Shown: piece by piece, positions 46,364-64,000 of the stretch
Position numbering within the stretch: position 1 is the first letter of the stretch
Layout: each line of letters begins with the position of its first letter
Assembly: GCA_001029295.1 (NCBI GenBank)
Contig: LDXJ01000060.1
Span: forward strand, 220,454 to 284,453
Source: Peptococcaceae bacterium CEB3
GTDB taxonomy: Bacteria > Bacillota > Desulfitobacteriia > Desulfitobacteriales > Desulfitobacteriaceae
DNA length: 64,000 nt
Reading direction: 5' to 3'
The notes under the pieces: generated by a model
Database searches by the model: none
What the model was told of the DNA's origin: nothing
What the model saw: the letters and a program-made list of their open reading frames with translations, nothing else
Made by a program: the position numbers and the translations under genes

Positions 46364-47554
46364 ATGGTAAAGAGGCTTTTTACTTCGGAATCGGTGACTG
46401 AGGGGCATCCGGACAAAATTTGCGACCAGATATCGGACGCGATTCTCGATGCGATTTTTGCCAAAGATCCCGAAGCCAGGGTGGCCTGTGAGACCGCGGT
46501 GACGACCGGCCTGGTCTTGGTGAGCGGGGAGATCACGACCCATTGTTATGTGGATATTCCGCATATTGTCAGAGACACGATCCGGGAGATCGGCTACACC
46601 CGGGCTAAGTTTGGCTTTGACGCCGATACCTGCGCGGTTCTGACTTCCATCGGGGAACAATCCGCGGACATCGCCTTGGGTGTGGATAAAGCCCTGGAAG
46701 CGAAGACCGGGGAAATGTCAGACGGCGAGATCGAGGCCATCGGGGCGGGTGACCAGGGCATGATGTTCGGCTATGCCACGAATGAAACGGACAGCTACAT
46801 GCCGCTGCCGATTGACTTGGCTCATCGCTTGGCCCGCCGCCTGTCCGAGGTGCGCAAATCCGACCTCTTGGATTACCTGCGCCCGGACGGGAAGACCCAG
46901 GTGACAGTCGAATATCAGGATAACAAACCGGCGCGGGTGGACACTATCGTCATCTCCACTCAGCATCATCCGCAAATTGCCCAGGAGCAGATCCGGCGCG
47001 ACCTCTTGGAGCACGTGATCTTTCCGACCGTGCCGGCGGAACTGCTGGACGAGCACACGAAATACTTTATCAATCCCACCGGCCGCTTCGTGATCGGAGG
47101 GCCCCAGGGAGACGCGGGGCTGACTGGACGGAAAATCATCGTGGACACCTATGGCGGCATGGCCCGGCATGGCGGCGGGGCCTTTTCGGGCAAGGATCCG
47201 ACAAAGGTAGACCGTTCGGCCGCTTACGCCGCCCGCTATGTGGCGAAAAATGTCGTGGCCGCCGGCTTGGCGGAACGCTGCGAGATCCAGCTCGCCTATG
47301 CCATCGGCGTGGCCCGTCCGGTCTCGGTCTCGGTCGAGACCTTTGGCACGGGCAGGATCCCGGATGAGAAAATCGGCCAACTGGTCAAGGCCAACTTTGA
47401 CCTGCGCCCGGCCGGAATCATCAAGAGCCTAAACCTGCGTCGCCCCATCTACCGCCAGACGGCCGCCTACGGCCACTTCGGCCGCACCGACCTCGACCTG
47501 CCCTGGGAGATGACGGACAAGGCGGAGGCTCTGAAGGAGCAGGCGGGGTTGTAA
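46364..47554 (+). CDS. metK: S-adenosylmethionine synthetase
   Basis: MetK makes S-adenosylmethionine from ATP and methionine. The 396-residue protein has [32 protein letters not shown] and [19 protein letters not shown]. The ATG at 46364 follows AAGGAGTGAGG and gives the family start; the longer in-frame opening lies inside coaBC. No SAM riboswitch is visible, as expected for a gene four bases after coaBC. Confidence 0.97.
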
Positions 47555-47672
47555 AGAAGCAAGGCCATGTTCCTTGACTATGATGTCAAAATAGAGTTCC
47601 GATGGCACTGTGGGCTAGAACATCCCGGTAGCACAACTCACAGCCGTCAATGGGCGGCCTATAGGGGTTACG

Positions 47673-47715
47673 AAGCAAAAGTAGCTCTCGCTTGCTGGGC
47701 GGGCTACTTTTGCTT
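47673..47715 (+). terminator. 13-bp perfect hairpin downstream of metK
   Basis: AAGCAAAAGTAGC (47673-47685) and GCTACTTTTGCTT (47703-47715) pair perfectly. The T-rich arm lets it terminate in either direction; the following tail is only TATG. Confidence 0.6.
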
Positions 47716-47898
47716 ATGTCTCAACTAAGGTTGCAAACGCAATTATCAGTGAAAGTGATTGATACACCGTCAAGGCCTCACCCCCTTTCAGGGGATTGGC
47801 CGCCCACCCAGGCCCCTATTGAGTTAGCATGGTTGAAGTAACACTGCCGCCTGTGGCAAAGCCGTCTAAACTCGGCTTCGACAGTTTTTCGTGGATTT

Positions 47899-47928
47899 AG
47901 GCATCCGAAACAATGGATGCCTTTATTT
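47899..47928 (+). terminator. hairpin terminator
   Basis: GGCATCC and GGATGCC form a 7-bp stem with an 8-nt loop, followed by TTTATTTAT. Confidence 0.6.
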
Positions 47929-48325
47929 ATGCAGTCAGTAATTTTTTATGATATGAACTCCCACTGTTCCCTGAACTTCTGCAGTTTCTGGCGTCCCGCG
48001 TCGTTGAAGGAGAAAATGAACTGATTGGCTGTCGTTGCAGATTTTTGTCCAGGGGTTTTGGTATTATGGAGCTACGCGGGTGACATGGTGTAATCCAGTT
48101 CGAGGGTCCTTGAGTATGTCAATACTTAGGGAGGTGAGTACTTTAACGGGTCCCATCTCTACATGCTCTCGGCGGCGGACTCTCGATATGATCTGCCCTT
48201 GTATCCAAGGCTACAGCCTGCTTCCAGACGTCTGTTTTGTGGGCGGACCCGACTCGCACCACGGCATGTCGGGCTAGACAGGAGGGAAGAGCTTGAGCGG
48301 CGCAGACTTTTAGTTCGGTGCCATG

Positions 48326-48354
48326 AAAAAATGCCCCCGGATCGTTCCGGAAGC
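48326..48354 (-). terminator. terminator of the crRNA-mimic RNA
   Basis: On the minus strand GCTTCCGGA pairs with TCCGGGGGC (two T-G wobbles) around an ACGA loop, followed by A and six T. Confidence 0.75.
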
Positions 48355-48503
48355 CTTGCTTTGGGGTAGGTTGAAAGAAACGCACATGTGCCAGGTTTTC
48401 AGGGGTAGAAAGCAACGGAACATTAGATGTGAAGGTTGCGAAGTCAGAAGAGCGCATTATAAAAATTATGTTTCAATACATTGGCGCCTTCAACCTACCG
48501 TCG
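48326..48503 (-). ncRNA. crRNA-mimic regulatory RNA (CreR/CreA class) targeting the cas promoter region
   Basis: Read on the minus strand, a degenerate repeat (48499-48470) ends ATGTATTGAAA, identical to bases 19-29 of the array repeat. A 28-nt pseudo-spacer (48469-48442) follows. A second degenerate repeat begins at 48441; it shares AACCTTCACAT (48437-48427) and matches 18 of the first 26 repeat positions. The pseudo-spacer opens ATAATTTTTATAATGCG. The minus strand at 48605-48589, at the start of the cas transcript, reads ATAATATTTATAATGCG: 16 of 17 bases agree, and the only mismatch is at position 6, which type I Cascade does not pair. The target is preceded by TCA, a plausible I-B PAM. A promoter (48539-48510) and a terminator (48354-48326) frame the gene. 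The predicted role is Cas-guided repression of the cas operon. Confidence 0.8.
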
Positions 48504-48509
48504 AATCAT

Positions 48510-48539
48510 AGTATATCCAAATTGACAGAAAAAAGTCAA
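48510..48539 (-). promoter_or_regulatory. promoter of the crRNA-mimic RNA
   Basis: On the minus strand TTGACT (48539-48534), an 18-bp spacer and TATACT (48515-48510) predict a start near 48503, four bases before the first degenerate repeat. The -35 box is also one arm of an inverted repeat TTGAC-N8-GTCAA (48522-48539), a possible protein site. Confidence 0.75.
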
Positions 48540-48547
48540 CAGAGGCC

Positions 48548-48576
48548 TTGACAAACCTCATCTCGGCTCGTATCAT
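48548..48576 (+). promoter_or_regulatory. cas operon promoter
   Basis: TTGACA (48548-48553) and TATCAT (48571-48576) are spaced 17 bp, predicting a start near 48583. The -35 boxes of this and the divergent RNA promoter are 8 bp apart. Confidence 0.8.
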
Positions 48577-48588
48577 TAAGGTGGATTC

Positions 48589-48608
48589 CGCATTATAAAT
48601 ATTATTGA
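48589..48608 (-). promoter_or_regulatory. predicted Cascade binding site in the cas leader
   Basis: The 17-nt match to the pseudo-spacer lies at 48605-48589 on the minus strand with TCA (48608-48606) on its 5' side. It covers about +7 to +23 of the cas transcript, so bound Cascade would obstruct initiation or early elongation. Confidence 0.7.
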
Positions 48609-48632
48609 ATAGGAGGTGCGCCTGGACTAACG

Positions 48633-48668
48633 ATGAAAGAATTAGGAGAGATTGCAAGGGGGAGGTGA
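48633..48668 (+). CDS. possible 11-codon leader ORF before cas6
   Basis: ATG at 48633 opens MKELGEIARGR and stops at TGA inside the GGGAGGTGATCAG ribosome site of cas6. An AGGAGGTG lies 14 bases upstream. It could couple translation into cas6 or be fortuitous. Confidence 0.3.
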   Translation: MKELGEIARGR

Positions 48669-48672
48669 TCAG

Positions 48673-49371
48673 GTGGAGAAATGTTTCTATGAGTTGATGT
48701 CGACCATTATACTGAACGAGGACGTACCAGTGGATGAGGTGCAGTCCGTCTTGGCGGGAATAATAAGCTACAGTATGCTGCAGGACGAGCAATTAAAAGA
48801 CCAGCACCGTCAAACTGGATTTAAACCCTATGTCTTCAGCGGGCCCTACCCGTTGGAACCTGACCGGATATACCGAGAGAGAAGGATGTACCGCTTTCAC
48901 CTGCGTACGCCGAACCTTAGTTTCGCCTTGGCTATGAAGAGGTGCTTGCCGACAGGCAATAGGGTCGCCAAATTTGTCTCGGTGGAGATGAAGAACTTTA
49001 CGGAAGAGCATATTGGTGAGCTGATTAGTTTGACTCCCATTGTATCCACAGTGAGCAACCGTTGCTGGATGCCAGAGAACGGCTTAGGGCTATTGGCCGA
49101 GCGTTTGCACGTGAACGCCTCCAAAAAATGCAAGGTCCTAGACGCATCCTTTAAAGCGCCGGACGAATATTTCTTTGAGCATATTGAGTTACTCAACCGT
49201 AAGCCGATCCTCGTCAAGTACAAGAGTAAAGGCGCGGTATTGCTTGGACATAAGGTGCGTCTGAGAGTGAAGGCTAACGACTGGGCTCAGCAACTGGCTT
49301 ATACCGCCCTGACATTGGGCTTGTCGGAAAAGAATACGCTTGGCTTTGGCTATTGTTTGGCGAGGAGGTGA
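48673..49371 (+). CDS. cas6: Cas6, CRISPR repeat endoribonuclease
   Basis: Cas6 cuts pre-crRNA within the repeat, leaving an 8-nt handle, here probably ATTGAAAT. The 232-residue protein has a ferredoxin-like layout and the C-terminal glycine-rich loop ALTLGLSEKNTLGFGYC that marks the family. The GTG at 48673 is chosen for the GGGAGGTGATCAG site. It is the first gene of the cas operon, and cas8 starts four bases after it. The same nuclease would be expected to process the crRNA-mimic RNA upstream. Confidence 0.92.
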   Translation: MEKCFYELMSTIILNEDVPVDEVQSVLAGIISYSMLQDEQLKDQHRQTGFKPYVFSGPYPLEPDRIYRERRMYRFHLRTPNLSFALAMKRCLPTGNRVAKFVSVEMKNFTEEHIGELISLTPIVSTVSNRCWMPENGLGLLAERLHVNASKKCKVLDASFKAPDEYFFEHIELLNRKPILVKYKSKGAVLLGHKVRLRVKANDWAQQLAYTALTLGLSEKNTLGFGYCLARR

Positions 49372-49375
49372 AAGT

Positions 49376-51136
49376 GTGTTAGAGGAACTGCTCAGCGAGT
49401 TCGGTGACCACCAGGTCCAGTACCCCGAGTTTGATCCCGATACCATGGTTTTGACAAACTATCATCTGAAGCCTGGACTTTACGTGCGATTGAACGAGGA
49501 TGGCAGCAAGGAAGAGATTTATATCGGAAAGAAAACCGAGCCGCCAGAAAATACTCCACTGGTGGACTGGTTCAAGCAAGCGGATTTTGCCAGCAGCTTG
49601 ATAGAGATGAACAAGCCGGTTGACCCTAAGAAACAAATACACAGTTGCAATTATCTTAGCTTGTTCTGTAAACGCGACACGTTCTGGCAGGACGGAAACG
49701 TGCATCCGAAATTGCCGGAGCACATCGAGCGCTATTTCGCTGCGCTGTCTGCTGTAAAAGACAAAGAAAGTGCCAGGATCCTGGCGACAGCCGGTTACGG
49801 TCCGCTCAAGGAGGAACAGGTTGCGGCTGGGAAGGAACGTTTTCTTGCTTCATTGGCAGAAGTCGGAGAGCTTGTAAAAGCCTATAATATCAAGGATAAC
49901 TCCTATGTTAAACTCTTCCTCAACGCAAGCCTTGAGACATACATCTATGAAAGCGGCCGGTATTTGCTGCCTAGAATATTTAACAATAACAAGTATAATG
50001 TCGAGGTTGGCGGCAACGTTTTCGGTTTGTCGAACACGGACATGGGGATGAACGCCAAGAAGCCATATTTGGAGCATAAAACTACTCAGTTCGAGGTGCC
50101 CTACCGTATCACTGCTGAAGAAGCAGTTTTGTTGCGCAAGCTGTTCTTGTGGCTAAATGGCCAAACGAGAGAAGGGAAAGTTGTCTACGGCGGGTACGTT
50201 CAGGTGGGGGTGCATGACCCGGGGCTTTTGGTCCAGAGAAGGGACGTGAGTGTACGGAAACCTGTTGTCTACCTGCACTTTGACAGGAGGATGGACTTGT
50301 CGGTCGACCATTACGATTTTCTGCCTAGCTTTGCTGATCGGATGGACAGACCCGTTACATTTAGGAATTTCGTGGATGCACCGAAGTACCAGGGAGGAAA
50401 GCTGGACAGGCTGAGTGCTGTGGAAGCGCACATTAACGAAAACCTATATGCTTTTCAGCTGGTGCGTAGCTACGATGAAGAACGTATTCAGGTGACTGAC
50501 AAGTTACCCCAGGTGCTGGCTTCCCAAATTGTGCTGTCAAGGGAGGCGATGCGGGCATGGTTGCGCAAGGGGGATTCCTTGCCCATCCAAAATAGTGTTG
50601 ACCGGATGACAAAGGGGGTAATTTTGGCCCGGCTGCAGAATTTGGAGTATGTGCCTGCCCTAGGCCATGCCTTAAATGTTCGATTTTCTCTGTTGAACTA
50701 CTTTGATAAGGGGGGAAACGATATGGGATATGCCATAGAAGAAACGTATAGAGGATTGAAAGAGAAGGTGTTGAACACTGAGAAAAGAAAAGAATCCGCT
50801 GCTTGCCAAAATGCTGTGGAGTTTTACCTGGCAGTTGGTCAACTTCTATATTATTATTTTAGCCTGAGCGAGGCACAGAAGCTCCACTATGATGTGCTGT
50901 GGAGGGGCATCGCCTCGGCCAAGGACTTAGAAGGTATCAAAAAGGAACACTGGAAATACTTCCAAAAATACTCCTATGCTATCGACACTAACAATCCCCG
51001 TTTCAATAATATGTTGAGCGTCGTTTCTTCCTATACTCCTGAGCAAGATGAGCCAATTAATCTCGACGCATTGCTTTATGGCTTTGCTGCCAACAGTATT
51101 ATTTATTATAAGGAGGATTCAAATGAAAAAGACTAA
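49376..51136 (+). CDS. cas8b: Cas8b, large subunit of type I-B Cascade
   Basis: The 586-residue protein lies between cas6 and cas7, where type I-B loci carry the large subunit that recognises the PAM. Sequence among Cas8b proteins is poorly conserved. Here KPGLYVRLNEDGSKEEIYIGKK near the N-terminus and the helical C-terminal part (YLAVGQLLYYYFSLSEAQKLHYD, small-subunit-like) are consistent. GAGGAGGTGAAA precedes the GTG at 49376. Its 3' end overlaps cas7 by 14 bp. The subtype of Cas8b was not resolved. Confidence 0.85.
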   Translation: MLEELLSEFGDHQVQYPEFDPDTMVLTNYHLKPGLYVRLNEDGSKEEIYIGKKTEPPENTPLVDWFKQADFASSLIEMNKPVDPKKQIHSCNYLSLFCKRDTFWQDGNVHPKLPEHIERYFAALSAVKDKESARILATAGYGPLKEEQVAAGKERFLASLAEVGELVKAYNIKDNSYVKLFLNASLETYIYESGRYLLPRIFNNNKYNVEVGGNVFGLSNTDMGMNAKKPYLEHKTTQFEVPYRITAEEAVLLRKLFLWLNGQTREGKVVYGGYVQVGVHDPGLLVQRRDVSVRKPVVYLHFDRRMDLSVDHYDFLPSFADRMDRPVTFRNFVDAPKYQGGKLDRLSAVEAHINENLYAFQLVRSYDEERIQVTDKLPQVLASQIVLSREAMRAWLRKGDSLPIQNSVDRMTKGVILARLQNLEYVPALGHALNVRFSLLNYFDKGGNDMGYAIEETYRGLKEKVLNTEKRKESAACQNAVEFYLAVGQLLYYYFSLSEAQKLHYDVLWRGIASAKDLEGIKKEHWKYFQKYSYAIDTNNPRFNNMLSVVSSYTPEQDEPINLDALLYGFAANSIIYYKEDSNEKD

Positions 51137-57207: not shown

Positions 57208-60200
57208 GCGGAACCTTCACATTGGATGTATTGAAATAAATGATTCAGATACAAATATCTATTTACTTTTTGGGCGGAACCTTCACATTGGATGTATTGA
57301 AATTTATGCGCGAGATATTGCGTGGGCAATCGAAGGAGTGCGGAACCTTCACATTGGATGTATTGAAATAGGGAAAAGAAAAGGTTGCAAAAATCACTGA
57401 AATTGCGGAACCTTCACATTGGATGTATTGAAATTGCGCTGGATGACCGTTAAAATGCCTCAGAATCGAAGCGGAACCTTCACATTGGATGTATTGAAAT
57501 ATAGCACCGGAAAGGGTTAGTAAATCCTCCTTGGCGCGGAACCTTCACATTGGATGTATTGAAATCCGATTTGTTGTATTGACTCCCCTGCGGATGGAGG
57601 CGGAACCTTCACATTGGATGTATTGAAATTCGTTTATCACTCCCGATCTCGATAAATTACTTAAGCGGAACCTTCACATTGGATGTATTGAAATGCGATA
57701 GCAAATGAATTCCTTGATCGCAAAATCCCGCGGAACCTTCACATTGGATGTATTGAAATTTGCTATCCGTACTTAGGTAGCCGTATCGCCAATCGGCGGA
57801 ACCTTCACATTGGATGTATTGAAATTACCAAAAGGAAAGGATAATGCCATATGCGTCAAACGCGGAACCTTCACATTGGATGTATTGAAATAGCGTTCAT
57901 ACTTCGAACAAGCCAAGCGAAATCTGCGGAACCTTCACATTGGATGTATTGAAATCGGCCACATTCGCGCTCGATGAAGCGGCGGATTCGCGCGGAACCT
58001 TCACATTGGATGTATTGAAATCGGTTTCTTTAGTGAGGAACGATGGATACGGTTCGAGCGGAACCTTCACATTGGATGTATTGAAATGCGTCAGGCGGGA
58101 GTGCAAGGAAACGGCGGAACGCTGCGGAACCTTCACATTGGATGTATTGAAATATCTATGCGCATCGGCCTTTCGTGTGCAGACAATTGCGGAACCTTCA
58201 CATTGGATGTATTGAAATAGAGAGACATCAAGGAGAGCGGTAAAAGGCCGCCACGCGGAACCTTCACATTGGATGTATTGAAATACAGCCCTGGGAATAG
58301 CTTTTCTCAGGGCTTCGCTGCGGAACCTTCACATTGGATGTATTGAAATTTAGTTCCGGCTTTGGTGTTGGAGAGGAAGTTGCTCGCGGAACCTTCACAT
58401 TGGATGTATTGAAATAGGCGCATGATTAGCAATATTGGTTGTGAGGACTGCGCGGAACCTTCACATTGGATGTATTGAAATTGGAAATGCTAGGAGATAT
58501 GGAAAAAGCCAAACCGGCGGAACCTTCACATTGGATGTATTGAAATGGCACCAAGATAGACACCTGATACGCCACGTCGTGCGGAACCTTCACATTGGAT
58601 GTATTGAAATTGGGGCCGTGATGCTCCGCTGTGGCCCGGTGGGAGGCGGAACCTTCACATTGGATGTATTGAAATGTAGGGCATCGGCTTTTGCGGTATC
58701 TCCTTCGTTAGCGGAACCTTCACATTGGATGTATTGAAATAGGCGTTCTCGGGAAAGATGCGTCAAGATATTACAGCGGAACCTTCACATTGGATGTATT
58801 GAAATTGAATACTCGGCTTTTCCAGCCCTTTGGAATGACCGCGGAACCTTCACATTGGATGTATTGAAATTTGTAAGCACGACGAGTACCCCCCAATCAG
58901 CGGCTAGCGGAACCTTCACATTGGATGTATTGAAATGGAGATCGTTATACGACTTCGGCATGACCCTTCCATCGCGGAACCTTCACATTGGATGTATTGA
59001 AATAGCGGCGGCCGGCACCGTCGCTTTTTGTTATCCGTTGCGGAACCTTCACATTGGATGTATTGAAATCGCTCACGGGTAACACAGCCTGGTCCAGTCC
59101 GCAAGCGGAACCTTCACATTGGATGTATTGAAATAGGATGGAGTTGGCAAAGACGAACTAGCTCGGCGGGCGGAACCTTCACATTGGATGTATTGAAATC
59201 AAACCCCGTTAAGACGGCGAATGGTGTCTGGGATACGCGGAACCTTCACATTGGATGTATTGAAATACAACAAGGTAATCCGTGCTGGCATCCAGCCAGC
59301 TGCGGAACCTTCACATTGGATGTATTGAAATTTTATTTTGCCTCTTCTTTTGTGATTCCTCCTTTCGCGGAACCTTCACATTGGATGTATTGAAATTTGG
59401 TAATGTCCACGACACCCGTTGTTCTGTGAAAGCGGAACCTTCACATTGGATGTATTGAAATTAAACCCCTTAGCTAAGCCATTTTTTGAGTCCCTTGCGG
59501 AACCTTCACATTGGATGTATTGAAATCTAGGTATAGCCGGGGTCGGCGGCCACCGGGACACAGCGGAACCTTCACATTGGATGTATTGAAATAGAAAAAT
59601 ACCCGGAATACTGGTCAGGGGTAGATAGCGGAACCTTCACATTGGATGTATTGAAATTTCATTCACCCCAGAGTGTGAGATCACGGCCATTGCGCGGAAC
59701 CTTCACATTGGATGTATTGAAATATCTATGCGCATCGGCCTTTCGTGTGCAGACAATTTGCGGAACCTTCACATTGGATGTATTGAAATCCCCGTGGAGT
59801 CACAGAATCCATTCAGTGCCATCAGCGGAACCTTCACATTGGATGTATTGAAATAATTCTCCTTCGGCTTTACTGAAGGCTTGAACAGCGCGGAACCTTC
59901 ACATTGGATGTATTGAAATAAGGCCCCTCTTACGCCATTCTTGAATCGTTTGCCGGCGGAACCTTCACATTGGATGTATTGAAATCTGCCATGTGCTGAA
60001 CAATGCTCTTTAAGACTCGATGCGGAACCTTCACATTGGATGTATTGAAATAATTATGACCTGGGCCGGACAGACGAACAAGTGTTGCGGAACCTTCACA
60101 TTGGATGTATTGAAATACCATACCAGAAGGTCTGTAACTTCTTGTACATAAGGCGGAACCTTCACATTGGATGTATTGAAATATAATTCTGCAAACTGGG

Positions 60201-63200
60201 ATTCCATCTCCCCGACAGGCGGAACCTTCACATTGGATGTATTGAAATACCGCGGATGCCTTGAGACTCCTGGCGGCTGCTCCGCGGAACCTTCACATTG
60301 GATGTATTGAAATTGTGCCAGTATGTAGATGGCTTTTATGGGCAGTTAAGCGGAACCTTCACATTGGATGTATTGAAATTGGAGCGTGGCCCTCAGAAAG
60401 CCGTCCGATTTGGGAGCGGAACCTTCACATTGGATGTATTGAAATCTTCGGAGATCGTATTGGAGCCGCCTTTTTGCGTTTAGCGGAACCTTCACATTGG
60501 ATGTATTGAAATCAAACCCGTCCATAGTAACCAATAAACTTCCATACGCGGAACCTTCACATTGGATGTATTGAAATTTTATTGTTCATTGCGTTTCCAC
60601 GAATGATATTTAGCGGAACCTTCACATTGGATGTATTGAAATTCGTCCAGGAAGGCATGGATCTTTCTCCATTTATAGGCGGAACCTTCACATTGGATGT
60701 ATTGAAATTGGCACCGAAGGTTTTGGCCACGTTAGCAACAATCTGCGGAACCTTCACATTGGATGTATTGAAATCCGTTCCATGCCGTGCCCCTGTGGGA
60801 GTGATCCCAGCGGAACCTTCACATTGGATGTATTGAAATTGTTTTGCCTCACTTGAACATGAGACAGGGCCAATAGCGGAACCTTCACATTGGATGTATT
60901 GAAATCTAGGATCCCACCAGTCCCGCAATTTCTCTTTTTGGGCGGAACCTTCACATTGGATGTATTGAAATTTGCGTTTACCTCAAATATCAGAAAGATG
61001 TTTCATGCGGAACCTTCACATTGGATGTATTGAAATTTCATTCACCCCAGAGTGTGAGATCACGGCCATTGCGCGGAACCTTCACATTGGATGTATTGAA
61101 ATAGATATGGAATTATTGATTTTTGATTACACAATGAACGCGGAACCTTCACATTGGATGTATTGAAATTAGAGCAATACCACTGCACGATCATGCCCGT
61201 CCTGGCGGAACCTTCACATTGGATGTATTGAAATGAAGTCGAACAAAAAGGAGGTTAATGCCCTGGAAGTCGCGGAACCTTCACATTGGATGTATTGAAA
61301 TTCGACGATGATAACAAGGATGTCTATTTTGACGGGCGGAACCTTCACATTGGATGTATTGAAATAGTCTTGCTGGACGAGCGCATGCAATGGTTGAATA
61401 CGCGGAACCTTCACATTGGATGTATTGAAATTGCTGATTGCGGGGCAAGCGTCGGCAACGGTGCGGGCGGAACCTTCACATTGGATGTATTGAAATGAAT
61501 AAAGTTATGATGCCTGGGCAGGTTCTTTATTTGCGGAACCTTCACATTGGATGTATTGAAATAGCTCAGATAGCTCAAATCGTTGAACAAGTAAAAGCGC
61601 GGAACCTTCACATTGGATGTATTGAAATCGGATTTTCCGCAGGGTTTTGATACTAAAGCCGCTTGCGGAACCTTCACATTGGATGTATTGAAATAGGATG
61701 GAGTTGGCAAAGACGAACTAGCTCGGCGGCGCGGAACCTTCACATTGGATGTATTGAAATTGGGTAGCTCTTCGCCGAGCTGGACGGCAGTTTTGGCGGA
61801 ACCTTCACATTGGATGTATTGAAATTGCTGATTGCGGGGCAAGCGTCGGCAACGGTGCGGGCGGAACCTTCACATTGGATGTATTGAAATTCAAGAAAGG
61901 TGTGAGTATTATGGCCACCTTTATCGCGGAACCTTCACATTGGATGTATTGAAATTCGATTTACACGCTCAGACCGTCTCGCAGGTGGCCGGCGGAACCT
62001 TCACATTGGATGTATTGAAATCTATTTCCAGATAGCGTTGCCCCATACCGTGGCACGGGCGGAACCTTCACATTGGATGTATTGAAATGGTATACGGCAG
62101 CGCCAACATCCAGGGGGTGTGATCGCGGAACCTTCACATTGGATGTATTGAAATAATCCTCACCAAACGCCCAGAAAGAATGCGCCAATAGCGGAACCTT
62201 CACATTGGATGTATTGAAATAGGGAAGCACCCAAGAAAAGCCTACAGTTGACGGCGGCGGAACCTTCACATTGGATGTATTGAAATAGACGCCCGGTGTT
62301 ATCTCTGTGGCAAAGAAATTACCGCGGAACCTTCACATTGGATGTATTGAAATAGAGTCCCCTTTACAACCCCTCGGATCTTTTCAAAGCGGAACCTTCA
62401 CATTGGATGTATTGAAATGTTCTGCTTGATGGGATCAACACGGTTCAGAAAGCCGGCGGAACCTTCACATTGGATGTATTGAAATAACCTTGGAAGAACG
62501 AAGAAAGGCGCGACAAGAATGCGGAACCTTCACATTGGATGTATTGAAATCGGACTCGAGTTGCTTTCAAAATGAAAAACTCCTCAGCGGAACCTTCACA
62601 TTGGATGTATTGAAATTGTCGAGCTCATTCGAGAAGTGGTGATGCTTCGGCTCGCGGAACCTTCACATTGGATGTATTGAAATTCACGTCGTATGACGGA
62701 GTGACGCTGCAATGGCAAGGCGGAACCTTCACATTGGATGTATTGAAATACAAGATGCTCCGAGATGTCTTAAAAGATCGGAACCCGCGGAACCTTCACA
62801 TTGGATGTATTGAAATAGGAGGAGCTGTCCCTAGCCAGAGAAGACCGCGAGCGGAACCTTCACATTGGATGTATTGAAATGTAGATGATTTCTCGGTGGC
62901 TAAGATCGTAGCAGAGCGGAACCTTCACATTGGATGTATTGAAATTGGAATCGGTCAGAATAGTGATCTGGTCGCATATCAAGCGGAACCTTCACATTGG
63001 ATGTATTGAAATCTCAATGGCAAGACATCGTAACCATCAACAACCTAGGCGGAACCTTCACATTGGATGTATTGAAATTGGAACCATCTGGCAATCCTCT
63101 GTCCTGGATCTCCGCGGAACCTTCACATTGGATGTATTGAAATCCTCAAACGAATGCGGCCACGAATACACCTGCTGCGCGGAACCTTCACATTGGATGT

Positions 63201-64000
63201 ATTGAAATGGAGAAATTGGCCGTGCTACTGGATACAATTGAACAGCGGAACCTTCACATTGGATGTATTGAAATAAAAATTGCCCAAGCCAAAGCCGAAG
63301 TGCAGCATAGCGGAACCTTCACATTGGATGTATTGAAATTGTCTATTCGAGATCAAGTGCGGGCGCGGGATCACAAGCGGAACCTTCACATTGGATGTAT
63401 TGAAATTACAGCCAGACGTTCTGGGTCGGAGTCGTGCCCGTGCGGAACCTTCACATTGGATGTATTGAAATGAGTAATACTTCTCTGGATGGTGCCGTTT
63501 CACCCAGCGGAACCTTCACATTGGATGTATTGAAATAAAGCAAGGAAACATTGACATCAAATCTAACAACAAGCGGAACCTTCACATTGGATGTATTGAA
63601 ATTCGTCGATGACAAATCACTGGACGATTCTATTTTCCGCGGAACCTTCACATTGGATGTATTGAAATAAGGGCATAGCGCTCATGGGAAGCGTCGGAAC
63701 CGGCGGAACCTTCACATTGGATGTATTGAAATTGGCAATTCTATGAGTCAGCCATGCTCCAGTTCCTCGCGGAACCTTCACATTGGATGTATTGAAATCT
63801 ATTCCGGCGCAATCGGGCAGCAATCCGGGGACAGGCGGAACCTTCACATTGGATGTATTGAAATCTTCACCGGGGGGATTCTAGCGCTATCGAGATTGGG
63901 CGGAACCTTCACATTGGATGTATTGAAATGTAACACCCTTTCCGGATGTACGGAGATAAAGCGGAACCCGCGGAACCTTCACATTGGATGTATTGAAATA
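57208..64000 (+). CRISPR. large type I-B CRISPR array, 104 repeats in the window, right end not reached
   Basis: The 30-bp repeat begins GCGGAACCTTCACATT and ends GATGTATTGAAAT. By hand count there are 104 copies, the first at 57208-57237 and the last at 63970-63999, and I saw no variant copy. The 103 complete spacers are 34-37 bp except the last (63930-63969), which is 40. No degenerate terminal repeat is present, so the array continues past the window. The ATTGAAAT 3' end and the adjacent cas genes indicate type I-B and rightward transcription. Four spacers occur twice. Many open frames through this region (with GTFTLDVLK or NLHIGCIEI) are repeat artefacts. Confidence 0.99.

Follow-up and report, generated by a model that had tools for sequence, protein, structure and literature searches.

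Upstream of cas6 in this type I-B CRISPR–Cas locus lies a short element built of degenerate repeat pieces, which raises two questions: would its RNA direct Cascade to the promoter region of its own cas genes, and how might such an RNA mature from a first repeat in which only 1 of 4 local hairpin pairs can form? The window, i.e., the whole stretch of 64,000 nucleotides that was analysed, holds a complete operon in the order cas6-cas8b-cas7-cas5-cas3-cas4-cas1-cas2, with Cas6b, Cas8b, Cas7b, Cas5b and Cas3b identified by profile matches, and a CRISPR array. The element, here called creR, is divergent from the operon and lies about 170 bp from cas6 (Table 1). A sequence-only reading of this DNA had described two degenerate array repeats around a pseudo-spacer on the minus strand, preceded by a promoter and closed by a hairpin with a T tract. 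The repeat blocks are present, ATGTATTGAAA at 48481-48471 and AACCTTCACAT at 48437-48427, with no further copy of either on either strand of window positions 1-57100, and the promoter and hairpin were both found as consensus matches. Both repeats are thus real; the two-repeat anatomy was nonetheless incomplete, having overlooked a third, half repeat and a closing helix with a perfect 11-bp core (48499-48489 with 48375-48365).

Table 1. Positions in the window of the creR element, its target and the cas locus.
Feature	Position	Strand	Remarks
Terminator, intrinsic (predicted)	48333..48354	-	9-bp stem, then T6
Closing helix, 3' arm CTTTCAACCTACC	48365..48377	-	Partner of 48487-48499
Half repeat AACCTGGCACAT (= AACCTGGC-ACAT)	48386..48397	-	Read as displaced 5' half of first repeat
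Second repeat AACCTTC-ACAT-CTA-ATGT	48420..48437	-	Hairpin kept, handle lost
Pseudo-spacer (guide), 28 nt	48442..48469	-	First 17 nt match cas leader
First repeat, 3' half: ATGT + 8-nt handle ATTGAAAC	48470..48481	-	Predicted Cas6 cut between ATGT and handle
Closing helix, 5' arm GGTAGGTTGAAGG	48487..48499	-	Near predicted RNA 5' end; 13 bp (1 GU) with 48365-48377
creR promoter (predicted) TTGACT-N18-TATACT	48510..48539	-	10/12 consensus positions
cas promoter (predicted) TTGACA-N17-TATCAT	48548..48576	+	Consensus match
Guide target in cas leader	48589..48605	-	About +7 to +23 of predicted cas transcript
TCA, PAM-like trinucleotide before target	48606..48608	-	TCA in 12/12 plain-matched sites
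cas6 (Cas6b)	48673..49371	+	PDLC01784, 2e-70
cas8b, type I-B Cascade large subunit	49379..51136	+	PDLC01507, 1.9e-142
CRISPR array	57208..63999	+	104 exact copies of the true repeat GCGGAACCTTCACATTGGATGTATTGAAAT, first at 57208

Two further observations concern the surroundings of the element. An Rfam scan of 47500-48700 gave no match at the element and two sub-threshold matches, both inside 47697-47809, a gap after metK in which the minus strand weakly resembles BsrG (29 bits vs a gathering score of 55). Between the guide target and cas6 the window holds an 11-codon ORF (ATG...TGA, 48633-48668), the stop of which overlaps the cas6 ribosome-binding site; in the other loci displayed of the permuted type defined below, cas6 directly follows its ribosome-binding site, by eye.

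The first 17 bases of the guide (48469-48453) match the cas leader (48605-48589) at 16 of 17 positions, with the sole mismatch at position 6 and TCA just before the target, in agreement with the sequence-only reading. Among 20,000 dinucleotide-shuffled versions of the window leader none came to one mismatch; the best had two, reached once, and six to eight were typical. No second target for these 17 bases (up to three mismatches) was found in the 64 kb window besides the guide itself and the cas leader; a CreTA module, in which CreA represses a linked toxin RNA, was rejected on the grounds that the cas leader is the only other match within this limit. In C. pasteurianum and C. autoethanogenum, TCA functions as a PAM of type I-B systems (PMC4860712, PMC10328091). 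Compared with phages as a source for the PAM, the spacers of the window array gave one weak match (E 0.6, to a single cyanophage present in two records), and compared with plasmids none; the array stretches of G095 and L017 that were compared gave no phage matches.

Related loci were sought through the window Cas8b, a scan of genome contigs yielding 12. Whole-genome searches with this protein were positive for 3 of 198 relatives (E up to 1e-10). At 1e-20 the positive genomes numbered 6 of 398 for the phylum, 5 of 113 for the order that includes G228 (L017, Desulforamulus aeronauticus), 4 of 63 for the class of G211 (L011, Syntrophomonas wolfei) and 23 of 391 for that of G466 (L016); at 1e-100 they numbered 1 of 82, 1 of 6 and 1 of 20 in three further genome sets. 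These sets overlap, and the counts take in the window's own genome wherever it was searched; the viral contigs searched held no Cas8 relative. A seed-mask scan of 29 further loci gave a match with both TCA and handle in four (L040, L047, L048 and L049), and the elements of L041 and L046 were found by eye. Of the same 29, L010 gave no match, and the 22 more distant loci gave TCA and handle together in none, among the up to four matches listed for each, from which absence is not to be inferred, repeats there possibly being different and the matches in L058 and L063 being swamped by their own arrays. In one distant genome, G321, the cas leader (L030, 3317-3432) has a hairpin resembling the second repeat, with a different handle and no target by eye. 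Genome G795 has two cas8b loci, L049 and L067, with the element at L049 only, among the matches listed.

The element is carried by 14 loci, on the strand opposite to cas6, with 12 guides distinct over their first 18 bases (G095 and L011 share one, L048 and L049 another). All 14 retain the 8-nt handle, which is ATTGAAAT in the 13 loci other than the window, and in all 14 the second repeat keeps AACC and its hairpin (with a 4-nt loop in L041) and has no handle. In the Cas8 tree the clade that includes every carrier has 17 rows, namely the 14 carriers, L009 and L012, which are cut before the leader (contig ends also end L044 and L050), and L010. The sequence-only reading had looked to related cas loci for a repeat-like pair with a leader-matching pseudo-spacer; this search was positive, the element being present in 14 of the 15 loci of this clade with leader sequence. 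That reading had also named loss of the match in close relatives as evidence against itself; one close relative, L010, the sister of L017, lacks element and target, its 543 nt of leader (1-543) having no handle, no second repeat and, for the L017 guide, no site better than five mismatches in 18.

The initial guide scan had scored mismatches at positions 6 and 12 leniently. The matches were also counted plainly, i.e., with the first 18 bases of each guide against 400 bases of every leader, with no mask, no PAM rule and positions 6 and 12 scored in full. Plain matching found the own leader in 12 of 14 loci, with one to four mismatches in 18 and TCA at every site, and in these 12 the own leader gave the lowest count of all leaders, the only tie being between G095 and L011, which share a guide. 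Foreign leaders mostly had five to eight mismatches and never fewer than four, and shuffled own leaders did equally well in 0-9 of 500 trials per locus. In L048 and L049 plain matching did no better than chance, being equalled by 77 and 338 of 500 shuffles, respectively, and another leader matched better; their own-leader site, a 12-nt match with a mismatch at position 6 and TCA, was found by the seed mask only. After this 12-nt match the guide of both loci (L048 474-623, L049 478-627) has an extra T, and pairing resumes one base offset for about 10 bases.

The mismatches are strongly concentrated. Over positions 1-12 of the 11 distinct plain-matched loci, 12 of 22 cells are mismatched at positions 6 and 12 together vs 2 of 110 elsewhere (Fisher p = 1.4e-9), and over positions 1-16 of the same loci the figures are 12 of 22 and 7 of 154; L011, with the guide of G095, and L048 and L049, whose site plain matching missed, are excluded from these counts. 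Because L040 and L047 had first been found with a mask freeing positions 6 and 12, a separate count was made on seven distinct loci chosen for their handle and not for their match, which gave 7 of 14 at positions 6 and 12 vs 0 of 70 elsewhere. The guide common to G095 and L011 has A at position 12, where their targets carry G and T, respectively. Mismatches within the seed, at position 9, occur in L041 and L046. In experiments on CreA, bases 1-5 and 7-11 are reported to matter, and 6 and 12 not to (PMC8501985). In the light of these experiments, the mismatch pattern argues for DNA recognition by Cascade rather than RNA-RNA pairing. The guide is complementary to the cas transcript immediately before AGGAGGTG, as would suit a plain antisense regulator that pairs with the cas mRNA leader near the ribosome-binding site and has no need of Cascade. 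Such a regulator is very improbable here, being disfavoured by TCA at all 12 plain-matched sites and the sixth-base pattern and, further, by the retention of handle and second-repeat hairpin in every carrier.

The element resembles CreR, a crRNA-like RNA with which Cascade or Cas12a represses the cas promoter, and which is described as sensing crRNA abundance and anti-CRISPRs (PMC12737573, PMC12948488). CreR, known from types I and V-A, is, as the window element is predicted to be, a crRNA-like RNA that brings Cascade or Cas12a to its own cas promoter region, generally with no toxin, according to a review that also tells of repression and of release by crRNAs or anti-CRISPRs in other CreR systems (PMC12737573). 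The likeness extends to CreA of the CreTA modules of types I-B and I-F, in which a degenerate first repeat provides an 8-nt handle and the second repeat a 22-nt 3' part, and pairing spans positions 1-5 and 7-11, with 6 and 12 free (PMC8501985); unlike that of CreA, the window guide has a cas leader as its predicted target, and no second match within three mismatches in the window. In type II systems, long-form tracrRNA, which serves autoregulation, and scaRNA likewise make the effector a repressor through an ectopic, repeat-derived guide (PMC8730458), with Cas9 and tracrRNA in place of the Cascade and Cas6 expected here. Given these features, it is well supported, from sequence comparison, that creR is a gene for an autorepressor small RNA of the CreR type, i.e., of a known kind. 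The autorepression circuit proposed for this I-B system in the sequence-only reading gains support from the relatives, the own-leader matches with TCA in 12 of 14 loci, and the mismatches at positions 6 and 12.

Mechanistically, Cas6 would process this repeat like any other, at ATGT|ATTGAAAY, and the resulting handle-guide-hairpin product would load Cascade. Target sites lie just upstream of the ribosome-binding site, by eye, and the window site also follows the predicted -10 box of cas; because of this position a transcription block is the likely effect, with Cascade bound just downstream of the start. Cutting is not expected, because pairing spans only about 12-21 bases. The block would relax once crRNAs or anti-CRISPRs occupy Cascade. 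We consider it probable that the locus encodes a CreR-type RNA which is trimmed by Cas6, guides Cascade to its own cas leader and represses it, with a first repeat that is apparently permuted.

True repeats, as read in the arrays of the window, L007 (for G095), L009, L011, L013 and L017, have the form AACC-N3-ACAT-N3-ATGT-ATTGAAAT, with few variant copies, and their predicted anatomy is a 4-bp hairpin, a Cas6 cut and an 8-nt handle. Two types of first repeat are found among the elements. The local type (L014, L015, L016, L047, L048 and L049) has a contiguous first repeat with a hairpin of 4/4 pairs directly before the handle in all six loci, its letters mostly changed yet complementary, e.g., ACGT-TTT-ACGT or ACGC-ATA-GCGT. 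In the permuted type (eight rows representing seven distinct loci: the window, G095/L011, L013, L017, L040, L041 and L046) the first repeat comprises only the handle and a preceding ATGT or GTGT, close to where the RNA is predicted to begin; no row has the full local hairpin, and a contiguous first repeat, with the 5' half directly before the 3' half, is found in none of the eight. AACC occurs in the 24 nt before the handle in five of six local loci vs none of the eight permuted rows. The permuted loci carry a block AACC-N2-4-ACAY (ACAT or ACAC) 15-25 nt 3' of the second repeat, which is present in all seven distinct loci and in none of the six local ones, and arises by chance in 0.1-2.3% of shuffles per permuted locus. 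We infer that this half block is the missing 5' half of the first repeat. In L046 the first repeat has GTGT and the block ACAC, while the second repeat remains ACAT-ATGT; L013 allows two registers, GTGT-ACAC or, one step on, ACAT with a GU pair.

Each half is flanked by an arm of the closing helix. The 3' arm begins 2-8 nt after the half repeat and pairs over 8-14 bp, GU included, with the RNA 5' end in all seven distinct permuted loci; these outer arms, present in 7/7 permuted and 0/6 local loci, would stand in place of the hairpin loop. The MAFFT alignments A3 and A4, on which both covariance models were built, have certain rows in which the 3' arm is one or two columns out of place (by eye), and because of this misplacement an arm-swap test was used instead of alignment pair counts. 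In six of seven permuted loci the best partner of the 5' segment is the 3' segment of the same locus; L046 is the exception, with a 5' arm that fits the 3' segment of L013 (-21.0) as well as its own (-20.8). The own-pair sum is -130.5 kcal/mol, and 20,000 random permutations gave p = 0.0001, the smallest value that the 5,040 arrangements of seven loci allow; on the local set the same test gave p = 0.32. Taken singly, the arms of L013 are unremarkable (27 of 500 shuffles as good). This fit of arms to their own partners also bears on whether the element might be a functionless decayed mini-array or the remnant of a self-targeting spacer, as its degenerate repeats and the bare leader of L010 could suggest. 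That is exceedingly improbable, since guides and targets vary by lineage yet, compared plainly, still agree with each other inside 12 of the 14 loci, and the window element keeps a consensus promoter and terminator.

Predicted folding of the RNA alone yields a stable closing helix. The 4-bp pairing between the first repeat (R1) and the half repeat (R3) is weak in the window (pairing probability about 0.15), G095 (0.02), L011 (0.25) and L013 (0 in the register tested) and reaches about 0.4-0.9 in L017, L040, L041 and L046, and the whole window RNA folds just moderately better than shuffles (z -1.97). These features would also suit an ordinary CreR with two degenerate repeats, in which the closing helix is a stabilising clamp and AACC...ACAY the decayed third repeat of a mini-array, with no role in processing: R1-R3 pairing is weak in four of eight rows, three of the four local pairs remain in four of eight (L013, L040, L041 and L046), the third block has no handle, and in CreA, too, the first repeat is described as the more degenerate one (PMC9458426). 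Against a clamp of this kind speak a block that is specific to the permuted loci, lies within a few nucleotides of the 3' arm and occurs where the full local hairpin is missing, and the GTGT/ACAC change in L046 beside an unchanged second repeat (likewise in L013, in one of its two registers). We regard this alternative as unlikely, though deserving of some weight; the two registers of L013 and the three local pairs kept in four rows slightly lower the odds of the permuted reading itself.

The permuted rows form one clade of the Cas8 tree with support 100/100. The local locus L016 joins this clade with 87/91, and the local loci form a single group in 12% of bootstrap trees; because of these two placements, a contiguous ancestor is likely, though not certain. 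A covariance model trained on six permuted loci, from which the window and L011 were left out, recovered the window element with 65.2 bits (E 8e-13), the best match in the true array reaching 31.7 bits. The model of all eight rows matched strongly in 4 of 398 phylum genomes, in each case at a training locus, and all four are among the six genomes with this Cas8. In the class of G466 this model gave matches in 2 of 311 genomes, one having the L046 element and a second, weak place, the other (G763) a weak place away from its element. Weak matches apart, the RNA search thus gave no new member beyond the training loci in the 398 phylum and 311 class genomes.

Overall, we lean towards a circularly permuted repeat in which half repeats from the two ends of the RNA come together as the Cas6 substrate, with a helix in place of the loop, so that the guide would mature only from the complete, folded transcript, and which would have arisen once, in a CreR-bearing type I-B clade, from a contiguous repeat. 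The two halves of the first repeat would fold together, the long helix with its free ends replacing the 3-nt hairpin loop. Such a layout may delay maturation until the whole RNA is made, and recombination or spacer insertion may then find no second contiguous repeat to act on.

In permuted tRNA genes, the halves of one RNA fold are likewise encoded in reversed order; unlike these, the fold concerned here is a CRISPR repeat hairpin, and the RNA between the halves carries the product. The primary CreR papers are reportedly Liu et al. 2023, on a crRNA-like autorepressor of cas operons, and Shmakov 2023; among the other papers listed by literature searches, judged by title and start of the abstract, none reports a displaced repeat half. 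Compared with CreR as described in the review, the window's clade differs in a first repeat that appears permuted across the RNA ends and is closed by a long helix. Haloarchaeal CreA repeats are described as having no conserved hairpin (PMC9458426), in contrast with the window clade, which apparently keeps the hairpin halves and relocates them.

If Cas6 does cut the permuted repeat, the loop of a CRISPR repeat hairpin can be opened and a helix substituted for it. The permuted layout, if true, would be a new guide RNA architecture, and would offer a design idea, namely guides that mature only at full length, without a contiguous first repeat. With their targets, the 12 guides distinct over the first 18 bases make up a natural panel in which evolution itself displays the free sixth base of Cascade, and together these results suggest that autorepression of the cas genes operates throughout a type I-B clade of Bacillota.
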